A stretch of DNA of 64,000 nt from Planomonospora sp. ID67723 (lineage in GTDB: Bacteria; Actinomycetota; Actinomycetes; Streptosporangiales; Streptosporangiaceae): contig NZ_JABTEZ010000002.1 of NCBI RefSeq assembly GCF_015711605.1, forward strand, positions 1,178,001-1,242,000, given 5' to 3'. The notes beneath the pieces are model-generated. The model saw only the letters and a list, made by a program, of their open reading frames with translations. It ran no database searches and was not told where the DNA came from. The position numbers and the translations under genes were made by a program. Positions 6,622 to 61,660 of this stretch are shown one piece after another. Within the stretch, counting starts at the first letter, position 1. Each line of letters begins with the position of its first letter.

Positions 6622-9600
6622 CTACTGCACGGTGATCCGGTCGACCTCGATGGTGATGCCCTTGACCTGCGGCGTCGACGTGCCCGTCGTCACCGTCCCG
6701 ACTCCGGGAGTGACTCCCTTGATCTTCATGGTGTAGGTCAGGGTGCCGCCGGGGGCGCCGGGAGTGCTGCTCACTCGCAGGTCCCCGGTGGGCGGGCCGT
6801 CGATCTGGCTGCCGGCCGTACCCTCGTCGTTCTCGGCGCCGACCGTGAGGCCGTACCCGGCCGGGGGCTCACCCGGCAGGTTGGCCGCGTCGTAGGCGTA
6901 GGTGACGTCCTCGGTCCCGTTCAGCCCGATCCACTGCTGGAAGACCTTCAGGTCGGTCGTTCCGTAGGCGTTGACCCGCCACTCGACCACCAGCCAGTCG
7001 CTGACGCCGTCGGTCAGCGTCGCGACGAACAGGCCCGGCGCGCCGGTGCCGTCCAGGTCGGTCCAGTAGGGGGCGAGCACGCCGTTCGGCCGCGCCGGGT
7101 CGGGCAGGTTCTGCGGCGCGTACGCGATGTCGGCCGAGCCCTCCGTCCCGCCGGCGACCGTGTAGCCGTTGGAGACGATGCCGATCCTGGTGTACGACTT
7201 ACCGGCGTACTTGAACTCGGGGACGGTGAAGTTCAGCGCCTGCTCGTCGCCGATCGGCGTCGGGGTGACGCCGATCGCGTCGAGCGGCAGGTACGGTGAG
7301 GGCCCGGTGCCCGGCGCGATGACCGGCCGGTCCGGCTCCCTGGCCGCCAGGGTCGTCTTCGCGGTGGCGATCTGGGAGCCGACCTTCGTGGCCCCGGTCA
7401 CGCTGTTCAGCCGGAGCCGCGCGTCGAGCGTGCTGACCGCCGTCACCTCGGCGTCCTGCAGGGTGGTGTTGGCCACGGTGACCGTGCAGGTCGACTCGCC
7501 GGTGTCGCGGGCGATGACGGCCGGTTCGCAGGTCTGCTCGACCGGGACCGCGCCTTCCTTGCGGAAGAACGCCACCGGCAGGTGCAGGTGCCGGTTGCCG
7601 CCGACCTGCTTGAGGTTCACCTGGCCGAAGTACTGCCCGTCGGGCAGCTCGGGGGCGGTGATCGCCACGGTGAGCTTGACGCTCTTGCCCGGCTTGACGC
7701 TGAACACCGGGGGCAGCACGGCGATCTTCGCGCCGTTCACGGTCGTGCCGGAGGCGGTGTAGGAGAGGGTCTTGTCCGTGACGTTGGTGACCGTCCGCTT
7801 GGCCGTGATGAGCCCCGGCATGGTGGGGGCGTTCACCGACGGCAGGTTCAGGTCGATGCGGTTCATCGGGTCGGCGGCGGAGGCGGCGAAGTTCGCCGCG
7901 GTCTCGTCCAGGGTCAGGCCGGGGTCGCCCGCCTTGGTCAGGTCGATCCGGCCGCCGCCGGTGTCGAACGGGTCGGCGGGGGTGACGCGGTCCTGCTTGG
8001 TGACCGACGTCTTGGCCGTCGTCTCCAGCGCGGACTTCACCTGGCCCGGCGTCCAGCCGGGATGCAGCGCGAACACCAGCGCCGCGGCGCCCGCGACGTG
8101 CGGCGCGGACATCGAGGTGCCCGCGATCGCCTGGTACAGGTTGCCCTGCGGCCCGCCGGCGGCATCCTCCAGCGTCGGTGTCTGGCCGGCCAGGATGTGC
8201 AGGCCCGGCGCGGTGACGTCCGGCTTGAGGAAGTCCCCGCCCGGCCCGCGGGAGGAGAAGGTGGTGATCGCGTCACCCTGCCAGGAGGCCTTCGCACCCT
8301 GGGTGAACGAGGCCGTCGCGCCAGGGTTGGCGGACAGGAAGGCCAGCAGGGCGTCGGTCTCCGGCTTGTCGATGTGGACGGTGGGGAGCCAGTGGTTGTC
8401 GGTCATCACATCCAGCGGCGTGGTGTTGTAGAGGATCATCCCGGCCGCGCCGCCCTGCCGTACGTTGAAACTCTTGAGCACCCGGCCGGGCCCGCGCTCG
8501 CAGGCGACGATCTTCCCGGTGAACAGGCCCGCGGGCGCCGGGGTCGTGCACAGCGCGTTGGAGTACGGCGGGGCCGAGGCGAGCACCACCGGGAGGGCGG
8601 AGGCGACACCCGCGGTGATGGAGGCGCCCTTGAGCGTGGCCGCGGCGCCGCCGGAGCCGGCCAGCGTGATCGTGGACTGGAACGTCCTGGTCTGCGTGGA
8701 GGCGGCCACGGTGGTCACCCACGGGCTGACGTGATTGACGGTGCCCGCGCCGGGACCGGCGTTGCCCGCGGAGGCCGACACCAGCACCCCCGCCGCGTAG
8801 GCGTCCAGGAAGGCCAGCTCGACCGGGTCGCTGTAGGGCGAGGTGCCGCCGGAGATCGAGTAGTTGATCACCTGGACACCGTCGAGGATGGCCCGGCCGA
8901 CCGCCTGGACGGAGTCGGAGTTGAAGCAGCCCTGCAGGCCGCAGACCTTGTAGATCGAGACGTGCGCGGCCGGCGCGATGCCGTGGATCGGGCCCCGGCT
9001 GATGCCCAGCGGGTTGGCGTCGGCCACCGGGCCGCCCGCCGAGGTGGTCGCGGTGTGCGTGCCGTGACCGTTGGAGTCACGGGCGCTGTCGGGGTAGACC
9101 TCGCCGCCGATGACGGCGTTGTAGGTCTCCAGGAACGGGCCGCCGCCGATCAGCTTGCGGTTGCAGGTGAAGGGGTCGGCGGCCGGGGTCAGCGGGTTGT
9201 CGCCGAAGTCGCAGATGCGGGGAGAGCCGTCCCGGGTGGGCGGCGCGGCGGGCAGGGTGCCGGGGTCGGCGAATTGAGGGTGCTCGGGCCAGGCGCCGGA
9301 GTCCAGGATGCCCACGACGACGCCCTTGCCCGAGGAGGCGCTGCCGCCGAGCTTGCTGTAGATCGCGGGAGCCCCGATGAAGGCGGGGCTGGAGTCGGTG
9401 AGCGGTTGCTCGCGCCGGTCCTCCTGGACGGCGGCCACGCCGGGCAGCTTCAGCAGCTCGGCGGCCTTGTCGGCGGGGACGCGCAGCGCCATGCCGCCGT
9501 AGACCGTGCGCAGTTTCTGCCCGGCCCGGGCGGCCGGCACGCGCTTGGCCAGCTCGGCGAGGAAGGTGTTCTCGATCTTCGAGATGTGCTCGCCGTACCT

Positions 9601-54403: not shown

Positions 54404-55354
54404 TCAGTATTTCCGACTCTGTCGCAATTCTTCCGCACGGGCGCTCGGCACGTGCAGTTGGACCGCGCATCCGCCCTGGTCGTGGTGGATGTCCAGCCGG
54501 TCGCAGAGCTGCCGGGCGATCCAGAGCCCGTCACCCGGGCCGGAGCTGGGGCTCGGCGGGACGAAACCGGCGAGCGGATCGGTCAGGCCCCCCGCGGGAC
54601 GGTGGATCTGACAGGTGATCGCGCCGAACCTCTCCCACAGATGGGCGGTGACCGGCGGGTCCAGATGCGTGGCCACCTCGTTGACGGCCACCGCGAGCAG
54701 GGTCGCCCGATCGCGGGTCAGCCCGAGGAAGGACGCCTGGTCGGAGACGAAGGAACGCAGCGCCTGCAGGCTCTCCGCGCGAAGGGAGACCGCCTCCGCC
54801 GGAGGCTGCGGCAGCGGTACGGCGTCGCACTCGCGGACGAAGTCCACCGGGGCGGTGTACTCGGGACAGGGCACCGTGGCGCCGTCCTCCAGCAGCACGG
54901 GGTGCGTGCGCCGTGCGGCCGTCATCAGGCGCGGTTCCAGGACCCGCGCGTCGTACGGGCAGATCATCCAGAGGTTGGTGCCCTCCATCAGGAGGTTCAA
55001 AACCGACTCCATGCGCTGCCAGGACAGCATGTCCCGGGGGGAACGGCCGATCCACATCGGCTCGGCGATCACCCGGACGTGCCCGCCGTACGGCGCCTCG
55101 GGCCCGCGCCGCCGCCAGTAGCGGTGGAAGGCGGTGGTGCGCTGCACCGGCCGGCGCCCCAGGAAGGCGGTCTCCGCGTAGTCCACCCGCCGGCCGTCGC
55201 GGCCCAGGGCGTCGCTGAGCAGATCGAGGTTGGCCGAGGTGGTCACGACCAGCACCGGATCACCCTTGGCCAGCCCGTCGGAGATGAACGGCAGAGCCAT
55301 CGCCAGGAACCGCTCGTCGGAGTCGTAGACCGCCGCTTGGTGGATGGAAGTCAT
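54404..55354 (-). CDS. MEDS-domain / RsbW-like ATPase fusion, degenerate N-box
   Basis: 316 residues. The N-terminal MEDS domain (about 1-170; MTSIHQAAVYDSDERFLAMA, then VLLEDGATVPCPEY at its end) is a DcmR-type sensory module common in actinobacteria. The C-terminal part (about 195-310) is an anti-sigma GHKL ATPase, but the N-box reads AVNEVATHLDPP, with His where the metal-binding Asn of NxxxH normally follows, and the G2 loop is SSGPGDGLWIARQL. ATP binding is therefore doubtful. It is the first of a set of stress-signalling genes and just downstream of a SpoIIE-like gene on the same strand. Confidence 0.82.
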   Translation of the reverse strand: MTSIHQAAVYDSDERFLAMALPFISDGLAKGDPVLVVTTSANLDLLSDALGRDGRRVDYAETAFLGRRPVQRTTAFHRYWRRRGPEAPYGGHVRVIAEPMWIGRSPRDMLSWQRMESVLNLLMEGTNLWMICPYDARVLEPRLMTAARRTHPVLLEDGATVPCPEYTAPVDFVRECDAVPLPQPPAEAVSLRAESLQALRSFVSDQASFLGLTRDRATLLAVAVNEVATHLDPPVTAHLWERFGAITCQIHRPAGGLTDPLAGFVPPSPSSGPGDGLWIARQLCDRLDIHHDQGGCAVQLHVPSARAEELRQSRKY

Positions 55355-55487: not shown

Positions 55488-57347
55488 TTACACAACGCGT
55501 AGGGCAAGTATCACGATCTCGTCCCACACTCTTCCTCCGGAGAACGCGTGGCGGTCCTCCTCGACGGTCTTGACCACGGCGGCCGGCGCCTGCGAGACGC
55601 ACCGCGCCAGGACGTCGGCCAGCCGGCCCTCGCCGTAGGCCTCGCCCCGGTCGTTGCGCGAGGTGACCAGCCCGTCGGAGTAGAAGAGCAGGGTCTGGCC
55701 GGAGGCCATCGTGATCTCCTCGCCGAACGTCTCGCTGTCGGGCGAGATGCCCAGCGGCACGCCGCCTCCGGCGGTGAAACGCACCGTGCCGTCGGGCTGC
55801 AGCAGCGCGGCGGGATGGTGGCCCGCGCTGGCCAGCCTGATCCGGCGCCCCTTGACGAACCCGGCCACCGCCATCACGAACATGCCGGTGCGCTGGGCGG
55901 TCAGGGCATGGTTGAGCTTGCCCAGGGCCTCGCCGGGGTCGCTCTCCCAGACGCTGAGCACGCGCAGCCCGTTGCGCACCATGGCGCTGACCGAGGCGGC
56001 CTCCTCGCCCTTGCCCGCCGCCCCGCCGAGCGCGAAACCCCACCCGCCCGCGACCGGGAAGACGTCGTAGAACTCGGCGCCGACCGGGCTGGAGCCCGCA
56101 TGGTAGATGGCCGCGGCCTCGAACCCGGGGATGTCGGGCAGCGCACGGGGCACCACGCTGGTGCGCAGCGCTTCGGCGGCCTGGGAGCGGTCCTGGAAGC
56201 TGCGCCGGGCCCGCAACGCCAGCCCGAGGTGGACGCCGATCTCCTCCATGAGGCCCAGATCGGCCAGGGTGAACGGCTCGCGGTCGCGTGACCGCAACAG
56301 GGTCAGGGAGCCCGCGGGGCCGTCCTCTCCCTGGATCGGCACGCACAGCACGGAGGCGGCGCCCATCACCCGCAGCAGCGGCGGCCCGTCGGGGACGCCG
56401 CCGAGCAGCGTCTCCTCCTCCAGCATCTCGTGGACCACGCCGGAGCCGCCCGACAGCACGTGGGCGACGAGCGGTGCGGCCAGCGGGTTGAGGCTCTCGA
56501 CCAGCCGGACCAGCTCGCCCACCGGCCTGTCGGCGGGACCGAGCACGCAGGCACGCCGGGGCGAGCCGTCGCGGACCACGTCGGCGATCACCCAGTCGGC
56601 GAGCTCGGAGGCCAGCAACCTGGCGGCCCGGGTGACGGTCACCGGCTGGCGCAGGCTGTCCTCGTCCAGCAGCAGGCGGGTCATGCGGGACAGCAGTTCC
56701 TGGCGGCGCGCCGCGGCGAGCACCAGGGCGGCGTCCGAGCGGTCGACCGGCCCCACGGGCGTCTCGGTGACCTGCGCCTCCACCGGAAGGACCAGGACCG
56801 CGGTCATCTCGTGCGGCTCGCCCGGCATGGTCAGCCGGGTCAGGGCGAGCTGCACGGTGTGCGCCCGGCCCTGGTGGGCCAGCCGGGTCTGGAAGGTCAC
56901 CGTCCGGCCGCCCTGGCGCACGGCGGTGAGGTGGGAGCGGAACGCCGCCCGCCGGGAGACGTCGACGAACAGCGCGAACGAGCGGCCGATCAGGTAGCCC
57001 GCCGGGCTGCCCAGCATCCGGGAGGTCTCCGCGCTGATCCGCCGGACCACTCCCGAGCCGTCCAGCACCGCCACCGGGACCGGGAACGTCTTGAACACCT
57101 GGCGCAGCAGCTTCAGCTCCCGCTGCGAGCCGCTCTCCCGCCCCCCCGACCGCCTGGGCGCCCTGCGCAGCTCGTGCAGGGCGGAGTCCAGCAGCTCGCG
57201 GGCGGTGTCCAGCTCCGCGAGAGCCGCATCGAGTGTGGACCGCGGATCGGCTGGGTAGGCGGAGCGGGTCTCGCGCAGCGAGGAGACCCTGGCGGCCAGC
57301 GCGCTCAGCGCCTGTTCCAGGGCCGGAAGGCCAAGGGCTTCGGTCAA
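55488..57347 (-). CDS. SpoIIE-like PP2C protein with PAS and GAF domains, metal ligands altered
   Basis: 619 residues from TTG 57347 (AGGACGAG upstream). A PAS domain (about 85-200; FKTFPVPVAVLDGSGVVRRI), a GAF domain (about 225-385) and a C-terminal SpoIIE phosphatase-like domain (about 410-619) follow an N-terminal helix. Metal-coordinating positions are changed: GDFYDVF reads GAEFYDVF, the DVxGKG Asp is Gly in ALGGAAGKGEEAA, and the final DDITVL reads WDEIVIL. Family members dephosphorylate STAS antagonists; this one may be a weak or non-catalytic relative. It heads a pair with the MEDS-ATPase gene. Confidence 0.85.
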   Translation of the reverse strand: MTEALGLPALEQALSALAARVSSLRETRSAYPADPRSTLDAALAELDTARELLDSALHELRRAPRRSGGRESGSQRELKLLRQVFKTFPVPVAVLDGSGVVRRISAETSRMLGSPAGYLIGRSFALFVDVSRRAAFRSHLTAVRQGGRTVTFQTRLAHQGRAHTVQLALTRLTMPGEPHEMTAVLVLPVEAQVTETPVGPVDRSDAALVLAAARRQELLSRMTRLLLDEDSLRQPVTVTRAARLLASELADWVIADVVRDGSPRRACVLGPADRPVGELVRLVESLNPLAAPLVAHVLSGGSGVVHEMLEEETLLGGVPDGPPLLRVMGAASVLCVPIQGEDGPAGSLTLLRSRDREPFTLADLGLMEEIGVHLGLALRARRSFQDRSQAAEALRTSVVPRALPDIPGFEAAAIYHAGSSPVGAEFYDVFPVAGGWGFALGGAAGKGEEAASVSAMVRNGLRVLSVWESDPGEALGKLNHALTAQRTGMFVMAVAGFVKGRRIRLASAGHHPAALLQPDGTVRFTAGGGVPLGISPDSETFGEEITMASGQTLLFYSDGLVTSRNDRGEAYGEGRLADVLARCVSQAPAAVVKTVEEDRHAFSGGRVWDEIVILALRVV

Positions 57348-57473: not shown

Positions 57474-58190
57474 ATGGATATGGTGACGCCCGTTCTCGCC
57501 CGTGACCTTGCCGCCCTCGGCAGGGTCAGTGAAGAGACGTCGAGCGAGAGCGTACTCCGCGGGCTGACGGCCACCCTCGCCGGCGGCGTGCCCGGCTGCG
57601 CGGGCGGCACCGCCGAGCTCTGGCAGCAGGAGCGGCTGGTGGTCTCGGCCTCCCACAGCGAGCTCGTCATCCTCGTCGACAGCGAGAGCGAGCTGGGCGA
57701 GGGCCCCTCGGCCGAGGCCCGGGTCACCGGCGGCCACGTGATCGTCCCGGACGTGCTGCGGGACTTCCGCTGGCCGGACTACTCGGCCATGGCGGTCCGG
57801 TGCGGGGTCCGCTCGGTCCTGACGGTGCCGATCAACGTCGAGCGCGCGGTCCTGGTCCTCGGCCTGTACGGCGTCCGCCCCGACGTCTTCGCCCCCCGGG
57901 GCGTGCCCTCGCTGGCCGGCATGCTGGCCGAGCAGGTGACCGTGGCCCTGGCGAACATGTGGGACTACGACGAGGTGCGCACCGACGCCGCCCAGATGCA
58001 GGAGGCGCTGGCCGGCCGGGCCGTCATCGACCAGGCCAAGGGCATCATCATGAAGTCCAGCGGATGCTCGGCCGAGGCCGCCTTCGACGAGCTGCGCCGG
58101 GTCTCCCAGCACCACCAGGTGAAGGTGGCGGACCTGGCCAGGCTCCTGGTCGACGAGCACCAGCGCAACCGGGGCGCCAAGCGGGACTGA
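57474..58190 (+). CDS. GAF-ANTAR domain protein
   Basis: 238 residues. The GAF domain (about 20-160) includes RSVLTVPINVERAVLVLGLY and the ANTAR domain (about 175-235) reads QMQEALAGRAVIDQAKGIIM, then SGCSAEAAFDELRRVSQHHQ and VKVADLARLLVDE. It is a predicted RNA-binding antiterminator with a small-molecule sensor. It is divergent from the SpoIIE-like gene and convergent with a STAS gene, so it belongs to the same signalling block. A second GAF-ANTAR gene occurs at 20.5 kb beside another partner-switch set. Confidence 0.88.
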   Translation: MDMVTPVLARDLAALGRVSEETSSESVLRGLTATLAGGVPGCAGGTAELWQQERLVVSASHSELVILVDSESELGEGPSAEARVTGGHVIVPDVLRDFRWPDYSAMAVRCGVRSVLTVPINVERAVLVLGLYGVRPDVFAPRGVPSLAGMLAEQVTVALANMWDYDEVRTDAAQMQEALAGRAVIDQAKGIIMKSSGCSAEAAFDELRRVSQHHQVKVADLARLLVDEHQRNRGAKRD

Positions 58191-58238: not shown

Positions 58239-58619
58239 TCAGGCGGACCGGCCGAACGCGGCCAGGGCGTCGTCGATCGTGTCGTAGAGCGGCAGCCGCT
58301 GCGCCAGCCCCGTGATCCACATCACCCTGGTCTTGGCGTACTCCACCCCGATGAGGGCGAACCTGCCGCCTTCCGCGGTGCTGACCTGCCACTGGTGGAC
58401 GATGAGCCCGAGCGCCCGGGAGTCCATGAAGGTCACCCCGCTCAGGTCGAGGACCATGTCGGCGCCGTGCTCGGCGGCCTCCGCCGCCAGGTAGTCGGCG
58501 AACTGATCCCTGGTGGTGGCGTCGAGCAGACCCGTCACCCGGATCACGTTGACCCCGCCGACCGCCGCCGACTCCAAGGTCAGGGCAGCCGAGCCATCGC
58601 CGTTCTCCGACACCGTCAC
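58239..58619 (-). CDS. STAS-domain anti-sigma-factor antagonist
   Basis: 126 residues from GTG 58619, whose AGGAGG site lies exactly 6 bases upstream; ATG 58643 in the same frame has no such site. The STAS domain includes GVNVIRVTGLLDATTRDQFA, and the acceptor segment GVTFMDSRALGLIVHQW keeps the phosphorylatable Ser, unlike the STAS protein at 18.8 kb. It is divergent from a sigma-factor gene, with the RsbW-like gene just beyond; the three form a likely partner-switch set (antagonist, sigma, anti-sigma). Confidence 0.85.
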   Translation of the reverse strand: MTVSENGDGSAALTLESAAVGGVNVIRVTGLLDATTRDQFADYLAAEAAEHGADMVLDLSGVTFMDSRALGLIVHQWQVSTAEGGRFALIGVEYAKTRVMWITGLAQRLPLYDTIDDALAAFGRSA

Positions 58620-58813: not shown

Positions 58814-59590
58814 ATGTCTGTTCAGGCAATCGAACTCAACGACATGACCGCCGAGGAACTCCTCGCAGAGATGGTCCTGCCTGAGGTCTCCGAATACCGC
58901 GCAGAGCGCCTGCGTGAGCGCATCGTCGAGATGCACCGGCCCCTGGCCATGGAGATCGCCCGCCGTTACCGCTACCGGGGCGAACCCCTGGAGGACCTCC
59001 TCCAGGCCGCGTACGTCGGACTGATGAAGGCCATCAACGGGTACGACCCGACCCTCGGCCACGCCTTCCGCGGCTATGCCGTCGTCACCATGACCGGCGA
59101 GGTCAAGCGCCACTTCCGCGACCGCACCTGGGCCATCCGGGTGCCGCGCGTCTACCAGGAGCGCAGGGCCGAGCTGAACCGGCTGGTCGCCGACCTCAGC
59201 CAGGAGCTCGGCCGCGCCCCCACGGTCGCGGAGCTCGCGGTGAAGATGAACATCTCCGAGGAGGACGTCCTGCTCACCCTCGACGCCTCGGCCGCCTACA
59301 GCGCGCTCTCGCTCGACGCGCCGCTCGGCACCGAGGAGGACGCGGCCGCGCTGGGCGACGTCATCCCCGACGAGGACGACACGCTGTCCGTGCTGGTGGA
59401 CCGCGAGGCGGTCAAGCCGCTGATCGACAAGCTGCCGTCGCGGGAGAAGAACATCCTGCTGCTGCGTTTCTTCGGCAACATGACCCAGGCCGAGATCGCG
59501 GCCGAGTTCGGCATCTCCCAGATGCACGTCTCCCGGATCCTTCGCAAGGTGCTCGACCAGCTCCGCGAAGAACTCGTCGCGGAATGCTGA
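58814..59590 (+). CDS. SigB/SigF/SigG-family RNA polymerase sigma factor
   Basis: 258 residues. Region 2: PLAMEIARRYRYRGEPLEDL, QAAYVGLMKAINGYDPT and FRGYAVVTMTGEVKRHFRDR (RpoD-like box). Region 3: RVPRVYQERRAELNRLVADL with an AELAVKMNISEEDV helix pair. Region 4: LPSREKNILLLRFFGNMTQA and EIAAEFGISQMHVSRILRKV. This is the stress/development-type sigma class controlled by partner switching. GGGAGCAG precedes the ATG. It lies between the STAS gene and the RsbW-like gene, so its anti-sigma factor is probably the next gene. Confidence 0.93.
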   Translation: MSVQAIELNDMTAEELLAEMVLPEVSEYRAERLRERIVEMHRPLAMEIARRYRYRGEPLEDLLQAAYVGLMKAINGYDPTLGHAFRGYAVVTMTGEVKRHFRDRTWAIRVPRVYQERRAELNRLVADLSQELGRAPTVAELAVKMNISEEDVLLTLDASAAYSALSLDAPLGTEEDAAALGDVIPDEDDTLSVLVDREAVKPLIDKLPSREKNILLLRFFGNMTQAEIAAEFGISQMHVSRILRKVLDQLREELVAEC

Positions 59591-59709: not shown

Positions 59710-60165
59710 GTGAACGAGGACGATACTCGTTCGATTCGCTCCACGGCGGGCGACGACGCGCCGCCGACCTCCCCCGTTCGCGGATTCCTGGCCGAACTCA
59801 CCTTCTGCCTGCCCGACCTGCCCGACGTGCGTGACTTCGCGGCCGTCCACGCCCTCCGGGGCGGGATGGCCCAGGAGCGCCTGGCCGACTTCCTCGTCGC
59901 GGTCAACGAGGTGGCGACCAACGCCGTCACCCACGGGCACGCCACCGCCAAGGCGCTGCTGCGCATGTGGACCACCAGCGACTCCCTCGTCGTGGAAGTA
60001 CGCGACGAGGGGCGCTGGGCCCTCCCGGCGGCTCCCGGGCAGACGCCCCCCGCGGCCTACGCCACCAGCGGCATGGGGCTGTGGGTGGCGCGGATGGTCA
60101 GCTCCGCCATCGACTTCAAGACCGGCCTCGACGGGACGGTCGTCACCATGTCCTTCGCGGTCTGA
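59710..60165 (+). CDS. RsbW-like anti-sigma factor
   Basis: 151 residues from GTG 59710 (GGAGG 10 bases upstream; the frame is open further upstream but without protein character). The GHKL ATPase domain has the N-box VAVNEVATNAVTHGH, G1 VRDEGRW and G2 ATSGMGLWVARMV, so it should bind ATP and be able to phosphorylate STAS partners. It follows the sigma-factor gene by about 120 bases, the usual arrangement for a cognate anti-sigma factor. Compared with the MEDS-ATPase fusion, its N-box is intact. Confidence 0.87.
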   Translation: MNEDDTRSIRSTAGDDAPPTSPVRGFLAELTFCLPDLPDVRDFAAVHALRGGMAQERLADFLVAVNEVATNAVTHGHATAKALLRMWTTSDSLVVEVRDEGRWALPAAPGQTPPAAYATSGMGLWVARMVSSAIDFKTGLDGTVVTMSFAV

Positions 60166-60334
60166 CGCTCCGGGGTCCTTCGCGGTCCGGCGTCCCGGGG
60201 TACGGCATCCGCCGCGACCGGCTTCCAGCGCTCTCGGGCCCCCGGAGCGCCGGGCTCCGGCGTGCCGGGCGACCGGAACCCCGCCGCCGGAAACAGAGCG
60301 ATCCGAGGCGGTTTTTCCGGGTAGAGGCGCCTCC

Positions 60335-61660
60335 ATGACCAATCCTCCCCGCATCCTGATCGTCGGCGGCGGCTACGTCGGCATGTACACCGCCCTGCGA
60401 CTCCAGCGCGGCCTCCGCCGCGGCGAAGCCCACGTCACCGTCGTGGACGCCGACTCGTACATGACCTACCAGCCGTTCCTCCCCGAGGCGGCGGCGGGCA
60501 ACGTCGAGCCCCGCCACGTCGTCGTCCCCCTGCGCAAGGTCCTGAACAGGTGCGAGATCCTCAACGGCTGGGTGATCGGCGTCGACCCCCAGGGCCGCAC
60601 CGTCGAGATGCGTCCCCACGACGGCCCCCCGCGCATCCTCGGCTACGACCTCCTCGTCCTCGCCCCCGGCTCCGTCTCGCGGACTCTGCCCATCCCCGGC
60701 CTGGCCGAGTGCGGCATCGGCTTCAAAACCGTCGAGGAGGCCATCCACCTGCGCAACCACGTCCTCGCCCAGCTCGACCTCGCCGCCTCCACCACCGACG
60801 GGACGGTCCGCGCCAAGGCCCTCACCTTCGTCTTCGTCGGCGGCGGCTACGCCGGAGTCGAGGCCCTGGCCGAACTGGAGGACATGGCCCGCGACGCCTG
60901 CCGCTACTTCCCCTCCATCGACCCCGGCGACATGCGCTGGCTCCTGGTCGAGGCCACCGACCGGATCCTGCCGGAGGTGGGCCCCGAGATGGGCCGCTGG
61001 ACGCTGGAGCAGCTGCGCGCCCGGGGGATCGAGGTCCGCCTCGGCACCCGCCTCAAGTCGGCCGAGGACGGCCGGATCGTCCTCGACGACGGCACCGAGC
61101 TCGACTCCTCGACCTTGGTGTGGACCGCCGGGGTCAAACCGCACCCCCTGGTGCGGGCCAGCGGCCTCCCTCTGGACGACAAGGGCCGGGTCAAGGCCAC
61201 CGCCGAACTCCTCGCCGAGGGCTCCTCCACCGTGTTCACGGCCGGGGACTGCGCCGCCGTACCCGACCTGACCCGGCCCGGCGAGATGTGCACGCCCAAC
61301 GCCCAGCACGCCGTACGGCAGGCCCGCACGCTGGCCGCCAACGTGCTGGCCACGCTCAGGGGCACCGAGCGGAAGCCGTACCGGCACGCCTACGCCGGTT
61401 CGGTCGCCAGCCTCGGCCTGCACCGGGGCGTCGCGCAGATCTACGGCCGCAAACTGCGCGGGCCGCTGGCCTGGTTCATGCACCGGACCTACCACCTGTC
61501 GCGGGTGCCGACCTTCAACCGGAAGGTCCGCGTGCTGGTCGACTGGACCCTCGCGCTGCTCTTCCGCCGCGACATCACCTCGCTCGGCGCGCTCGCCAAC
61601 CCCCGCCAGGAGTTCGAGTTCGCGGCACGCCCGGACCCGGCCCGCCCCGACGCCGGGTGA
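60335..61660 (+). CDS. ndh: Type II NADH dehydrogenase
   Basis: 441 residues. FAD-binding Rossmann motif ILIVGGGYVGMYTALRLQRG at the start and the NADH motif VFVGGGYAGVEALAELEDM near residue 165. The quinone/FAD segment TPNAQHAVRQARTLAANVLA and the C-terminal amphipathic region with RVPTFNRKVRVLVDWTLALL place it at the membrane as a single-subunit, non-proton-pumping NADH:quinone oxidoreductase. The start is ATG 60335; the long upstream open reading is a shadow of the RsbW-like gene. It ends before a strong hairpin. Confidence 0.9.
   Translation: MTNPPRILIVGGGYVGMYTALRLQRGLRRGEAHVTVVDADSYMTYQPFLPEAAAGNVEPRHVVVPLRKVLNRCEILNGWVIGVDPQGRTVEMRPHDGPPRILGYDLLVLAPGSVSRTLPIPGLAECGIGFKTVEEAIHLRNHVLAQLDLAASTTDGTVRAKALTFVFVGGGYAGVEALAELEDMARDACRYFPSIDPGDMRWLLVEATDRILPEVGPEMGRWTLEQLRARGIEVRLGTRLKSAEDGRIVLDDGTELDSSTLVWTAGVKPHPLVRASGLPLDDKGRVKATAELLAEGSSTVFTAGDCAAVPDLTRPGEMCTPNAQHAVRQARTLAANVLATLRGTERKPYRHAYAGSVASLGLHRGVAQIYGRKLRGPLAWFMHRTYHLSRVPTFNRKVRVLVDWTLALLFRRDITSLGALANPRQEFEFAARPDPARPDAG

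Follow-up and report, generated by a model that had tools for sequence, protein, structure and literature searches.

Gene content and domain architecture

The window analysed here, a stretch of 64,000 nucleotides from the genome of Planomonospora sp. ID67723 (8.3 Mb, 9 contigs), encodes a 619 aa protein at 55488..57347 on the reverse strand (-); the gene has a TTG start, and its coordinates and frame are exact. Its nearest named relative is found in Planomonospora venezuelensis (locus L014; 94% identity). The protein comprises a PAS domain (residues 81-179; 56811..57107, -; Pfam PAS and PAS_4), a GAF domain (residues ~266-379; 56211..56552, -) and a C-terminal, degenerate PP2C/SpoIIE domain (residues 407-619; 55491..56129, -). 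Within the GAF part, Pfam GAF (308-378) lies above its cut-off, and GAF_2 (266-378) and GAF_3 (292-379) lie below theirs; the PAS and GAF domains listed in an earlier note on this DNA, made from the sequence alone, are both found by Pfam.

The C-terminal domain belongs to the SpoIIE/PPM (PP2C) family: PF07228 aligns with residues 434-618 at 114 bits (cut-off 25), and the corresponding part of an AlphaFold model adopts the PP2C fold. The model, for which members of the clade described below were the only input, reaches a whole-model pLDDT of 69.8, a middling value. The highest-ranked solved fold for its C-terminal part is that of Mycobacterium tuberculosis Rv1364c (3ke6_B; Z 25.0, 2.5 A, 212 residues; VIA), and Bacillus subtilis SpoIIE is also matched (5ucg_A; Z 23.5, 2.6 A, 210 residues). 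Two switch-region helices are predicted at residues 448-467 and 471-485. When the whole chain was compared to the PDB with Foldseek, phytochromes were also among the matches, which we take as matches to the PAS-GAF part.

Read along the forward strand, the locus consists of genes for an RsbA-type MEDS-HATPase protein (-), the PAS-GAF-SpoIIE protein (-), a GAF-ANTAR protein (+), a STAS protein (-), a SigB-type sigma factor (+) and an RsbW-like HATPase (+). The GAF-ANTAR gene (57474..58190, +; Pfam) is divergent from its PAS-GAF-SpoIIE neighbour. The STAS protein (58239..58619, -) was recognised by Pfam and NCBIfam as an anti-sigma factor antagonist, and its translation displays an MDSRALG motif whose Ser (codon 58419..58421, -) is the putative phosphorylation site. 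It is followed by a sigma factor of the SigB/SigF/SigG type (58814..59590, +; TIGR02980, 275 bits for a cut-off of 234.35) and by the RsbW-like anti-sigma kinase (59710..60165, +; Pfam HATPase_c_2), with an intact N-box, NEVATNAVTHG. With a SigB-type sigma factor, a HATPase kinase with its N-box and a STAS protein with its Ser, this is a partner-switch locus of the Rsb type. A further frame, 59831-61660 (+), matches NDH2-like pyridine nucleotide-disulphide oxidoreductases and, as listed among the open reading frames, starts before the RsbW-like HATPase gene has ended.

Metal-site residues

In B. subtilis SpoIIE, Mn1 is bound by D628, D746 and D795 and the Mn2 site is formed by D628, G629 and D610, D628 being common to both sites (PMC3517971, in its available text); the accessible portion of PMC5468089 names D628, D746, D795 and the carbonyl of G629 as members of the metal site. 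The register between SpoIIE and our protein was taken from a profile alignment with 5mqh, counted by hand, in which a constant offset of 579 fits D610, D628, D746 and D795. Their respective counterparts are E425 (56073..56075, -), which is changed but still acidic, G442 (56022..56024, -), where the acid is lost, D558 (55674..55676, -) and D609 (55521..55523, -), the latter two being kept. The protein thus departs at two positions from the four aspartates that mark an active SpoIIE-type phosphatase.

According to the earlier note, three metal-ligand motifs of the domain deviate, and for two of them the alignment agrees. The GAEFYD string carries E425 at the position of D610, where a ligand has changed to Glu, and the GGAAGKG string carries G442 at the position of D628, where the ligand Asp is gone. 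The supposed loss of a ligand from the C-terminal DD pair had to be rejected: the WDEI string is present, but D795 corresponds to the kept first Asp of the pair, D609, and the change from DD to DE falls on the next residue. That residue matches D796, which is not among the ligands named in the available text of PMC3517971.

The columns of 95 altered proteins were compared with those of their canonical relatives, and no new acid fixed near the D628 site was seen. E448 and E449 lie beside that site, but their positions hold E, D or Q in the canonical relatives too.

Distribution of the altered site

Homologues were collected from 204 loci, one of them without an anchor, and the remaining 203 were collapsed by their last 500 residues into 168 unique proteins; the residue counts leave aside the paralogue loci L002-L013 and L157-L172, as well as loci L233-L248, which stem from a class-wide genome search. 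The set falls into two parts. In 96 of the 168 proteins, PAS-GAF identity to the window protein is at least 51.5%, and all of these are altered at D610 and, where it can be read (95), at D628; in the other 72, identity does not exceed 47.4% and the altered pattern does not occur. The 95 complete clade members all have E at D610 and G or S at D628, with D (79) or E (16) at D746 and D throughout at D795. Written in the order D610, D628, D746 and D795, their states are EGDD (49), ESDD (30) and EGED (16); one further protein is cut by a contig end (loci L058/L218, state E---) and is not part of the 95. Among the rest of the 168, 55 are DDDD, three show other patterns (DNHE, DEDD and DDND) and 14 have no SpoIIE domain, a group that is undersampled, only part of its matches having been collected. 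The DEDD and DDND patterns are single cases (L221 and L227), and the DNHE protein (L097; G062:C8:407000-423000, frame 7019-8950, +) has a SpoIIE domain altered in a different manner.

Within the Planomonospora sp. ID67723 genome, the 15 other SpoIIE proteins all keep D610, D628 and D746, and D795 is kept in the 12 where it is readable. The named loci lie in the altered clade in 50 of 54 cases, the remaining four being Streptomyces loci without a SpoIIE domain. Nine genera are represented in the clade (Planomonospora, Planobispora, Streptosporangium, Nonomuraea, Planotetraspora, Microbispora, Acrocarpospora, Microtetraspora and Sphaerimonospora), together with one named record that carries a family-level name only. 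When 296 genomes across the class were searched, 28 gave a match at E 1e-50, all within the window's own family. A literature search of titles and abstract openings, in which subscription journals were thinly covered, returned no paper that we recognised as describing the clade.

Phylogenetic analysis of the PAS-GAF part is in agreement with this division. In a FastTree analysis of the 168 unique proteins, a branch with a support of 100 separates the 96 altered ones from all others, and in a tree of 106 PAS-GAF regions, built by a quick method with the PP2C part excluded, 46 altered proteins form one clade, again with a support of 100. In the latter tree the DNHE protein is sister to the altered clade (support 87), on a long branch and with a placement flagged as unsure; its position in the FastTree analysis is likewise flagged as a long-branch join. 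The tree of 106 contains several long branches, the grouping of L099 with L140 being flagged as well.

Homologues consisting of PAS and GAF domains only, without a SpoIIE domain, were found at loci L127-L136 and L064-L067; at some of L127-L135, a second frame nearby resembles the query. That such proteins are offspring of the altered clade is unsupported, as the 10 SpoIIE-less proteins of the window's family form a clade of their own in the tree of 106, with the canonical L098 as nearest relative (support 98). The alteration of the SpoIIE domain and its loss therefore appear to have taken place on separate branches, as judged from these sequences. In the FastTree analysis, the 14 SpoIIE-less proteins require two changes.

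Conservation of the altered domain and of its neighbourhood

The altered SpoIIE domain is kept under purifying selection, judging from sequence divergence among clade members. Over pairs of 80-97% identity, its median dN/dS is 0.187 (331 non-independent pairs from 66 proteins), and that of the canonical domain is 0.238 (25 pairs, 24 proteins); elsewhere in the altered proteins the medians are 0.194 for the N-terminal/PAS part and 0.349 for GAF. The mean identity over all pairs is also highest in the SpoIIE domain (0.711, versus 0.674 for PAS and 0.657 for GAF). Sequencing error and decay of a single gene were rejected as causes of the change, given that 95 complete unique clade members carry it and that the domain is under constraint.

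Seven columns distinguish the two groups almost completely (one residue in at least 95% of the altered group and another in at least 85% of the canonical group), the altered residues being V398, E425, V457, M492, G496, H511 and E610. Q485, G488, R582, K593 and D598 are among the residues that show no variation in the altered group but do vary among canonical proteins. The flap argues against STAS docking having merely been retained: at the position that matches I723 of SpoIIE (hand mapping), a docking residue according to the available text of PMC11418112, Phe is present in 98% of the 55 canonical proteins, whereas the 95 altered ones mostly have E, A, S or D. Because this position varies throughout the altered clade, STAS may be docked in another way or no longer at all.

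The genes of the partner switch are retained alongside. All 73 altered loci whose upstream flank exceeds 3 kb have STAS, sigma factor and HATPase genes within 6 kb, and the altered SpoIIE protein therefore sits beside a complete encoded partner switch. All 94 STAS matches from altered loci possess the motif F M/L DSRALG, Ser included, and all 75 HATPase matches have the intact N-box of the RsbW-like kinase. Around canonical proteins with a comparable flank (n = 51), STAS was detected in 10 loci, a sigma factor in 14 and a HATPase in one, the searches being less sensitive in these distant loci as their queries were the window proteins.

In each of the 95 altered loci, the GAF-ANTAR gene is the neighbour of the altered gene and lies on the other strand. 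It also lies beside the PAS-GAF protein in 42 of 55 canonical loci, 10 of 10 SpoIIE-less loci of the family and three of the four Streptomyces loci; as the adjacency spans all these groups, the PAS-GAF and GAF-ANTAR proteins may represent an older functional unit.

The sixth gene, on the other side of the altered gene (54404..55354, -), encodes an RsbA-type anti-sigma factor with MEDS and HATPase domains (NF041045, 288.5 bits for a cut-off of 210) and a SpoIIAB/RsbW fold (1l0o_A; Z 13.4, 3.0 A, 122 residues). The N-box Asn of GHKL ATPases holds Mg; in the RsbA-type protein of the window this residue is replaced by His230. None of the 23 unique, near full-length RsbA copies of the altered clade keeps the Asn (Y in nine, H in seven, L in four, and Q, M and F in one each), and all 18 copies from other loci with the gene do (8/8 canonical, 10/10 SpoIIE-less). 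In many loci the gene has degenerated, is broken up or is missing: near full-length copies were found in 15 of the 50 named altered ones, a count that requires such a copy within collected stretches of varying length and treats split copies (L020/L074) as absent, the gene of L020 being divided over two frames. The altered phosphatase and the RsbA N-box loss are associated between clades, which is in effect one event and no proof of a functional link.

A putative pseudophosphatase in a sigma partner switch

The loss of a metal residue from a domain that is nonetheless preserved next to an intact sigma switch suggests that the altered SpoIIE domain probably works by binding and not by catalysis. 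We consider it fairly probable, on this comparative evidence, that the 55488-57347 protein is a PAS/GAF-gated pseudophosphatase that serves as a binding module in a SigB-type partner-switch locus. The altered domain would be unable to dephosphorylate the STAS phosphate at a useful rate and, D628 being absent, the expected output is binding instead of hydrolysis. Signals received by PAS and GAF would determine how the linker and the PP2C switch helices are arranged, as has been proposed for RsbU and RssB (PMC12143880 and PMC5468089, in the portions available), and the retained PP2C scaffold with its two switch helices would couple these signals to the binding of a partner. The most likely partner would be the STAS protein encoded ~0.9 kb away, either as such or phosphorylated. 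Holding it would alter the amount of free STAS available for displacing the RsbW-like anti-sigma kinase from the sigma factor, in a direction that we can only infer, and dephosphorylation proper would fall to another of the cell's SpoIIE phosphatases.

Two options had been put forward in the earlier note, a sensor with a non-catalytic STAS-binding domain and a different metal mode, and in our comparison the former appears better supported. The clade-wide loss of the Asp, the purifying selection and the presence in the locus of a STAS protein with its Ser all speak for it; the flap Phe, which is not kept, speaks against its STAS-binding part. As E425, D558 and D609 remain acidic, the site might bind a single metal weakly and act slowly. 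It is, however, quite unlikely that the domain still acts as a phosphatase of this kind, with Glu for D610 and nothing for D628: the acids at the D610, D746 and D795 positions across the clade and the strong constraint on the domain would fit such an enzyme, but the residue that all 95 proteins lack, with Gly or Ser in its place, is the one that contributes to both metal sites (PMC3517971, available text), and the acids next to it are neither new nor peculiar to the clade.

Something other than STAS could be bound, for instance one of the two ATPases (RsbW-like or RsbA-like), the sigma factor or GAF-ANTAR, and the invariable adjacency of GAF-ANTAR, the abandoned flap docking position and the precedent of RssB, whose PP2C domain binds a sigma factor (PMC5468089, available portion), are all compatible with this. 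We regard such a partner as unlikely given that STAS with its Ser accompanies the altered gene in all 73 loci with enough flank, and that SpoIIE domains usually have STAS proteins as their substrates (PMC11418112, available text). The SpoIIE domain might also be a passive leftover on its way out, the selected part being PAS-GAF with GAF-ANTAR. The family can do without the domain, since the PAS-GAF protein of a neighbouring clade lacks it; there are at least 10 SpoIIE-less homologues in the window's family and at least four in Streptomyces, 13 of these 14 lying beside GAF-ANTAR, and the adjacent RsbA gene is itself decaying in many loci. Against this, the domain is the most conserved part of the altered proteins, with a low dN/dS and residues fixed in this group only, and the SpoIIE-less clade is nearest to a canonical protein and not to the altered ones, making the leftover reading very unlikely.

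A PAS/GAF-gated pseudophosphatase could moreover be part of a larger, phosphorylation-free branch of the switch. The dead SpoIIE domain and a dead RsbA-type kinase, without its N-box Asn, would have been retained together beside the intact sigma/kinase/STAS core, PAS/GAF and MEDS signals reaching the sigma factor purely through competitive binding, with RsbA lost later in many lineages and the pseudophosphatase left as sole sensor. This extension is speculative, and we hold it to be somewhat unlikely.

Relation to known systems

The closest parallel is RssB, a pseudo-PP2C adaptor for sigma S that uses its switch helices for adaptor function (PMC5468089, available portion) and, as is proposed for the protein described here, places a PP2C domain in sigma control without the need for phosphatase activity. 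The likeness is limited: the match to the RssB family NF045505 is weak (25.7 bits for a cut-off of 700), the receiver domain of RssB is replaced by PAS-GAF, no receiver family being among the Pfam matches of our protein, and RssB feeds sigma S to ClpXP whereas the locus studied here holds a STAS/RsbW partner switch. RssB of Pseudomonas aeruginosa has apparently been described with an active phosphatase domain (PMC12143880, available portion). RsbP, RsbU and SpoIIE of B. subtilis share with our protein the combination of a sensor or regulatory domain and PP2C in a sigma partner switch (PMC12143880 and PMC5468089, as far as available); they are active phosphatases, SpoIIE having D610, D628, D746 and D795 where our protein has E and G at the first two. 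Rv1364c of M. tuberculosis, which has RsbU and RsbW domains and shares the fold, differs in keeping the GGD and GDV motifs in the profile alignment and, according to its entry title, in joining phosphatase and kinase in one chain. Eukaryotic PP2C scaffolds have also been described as pseudophosphatases, namely TAB1 (PMC5468089, available portion) and PHLPP (PMC13358185, available portion), in other pathways that do not include a sigma switch.

Since RssB and TAB1 already exemplify PP2C scaffolds without catalysis, at least as presented in the available portion of PMC5468089, the kind is known and the altered SpoIIE protein is not categorically new. Bradshaw and colleagues suggested, with RssB as example, that pseudoenzymes in which the allosteric switch persists could be intermediates in PP2C evolution (PMC5468089, available portion). 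A single family comprises active-looking DDDD relatives, the DNHE protein, the altered clade with its well-preserved domain and, next to it, a clade without the domain, and the step from enzyme to binder is therefore open to study with relatives. For at least 95 unique proteins of the altered clade, any label that implies a functional SpoIIE phosphatase is questionable.
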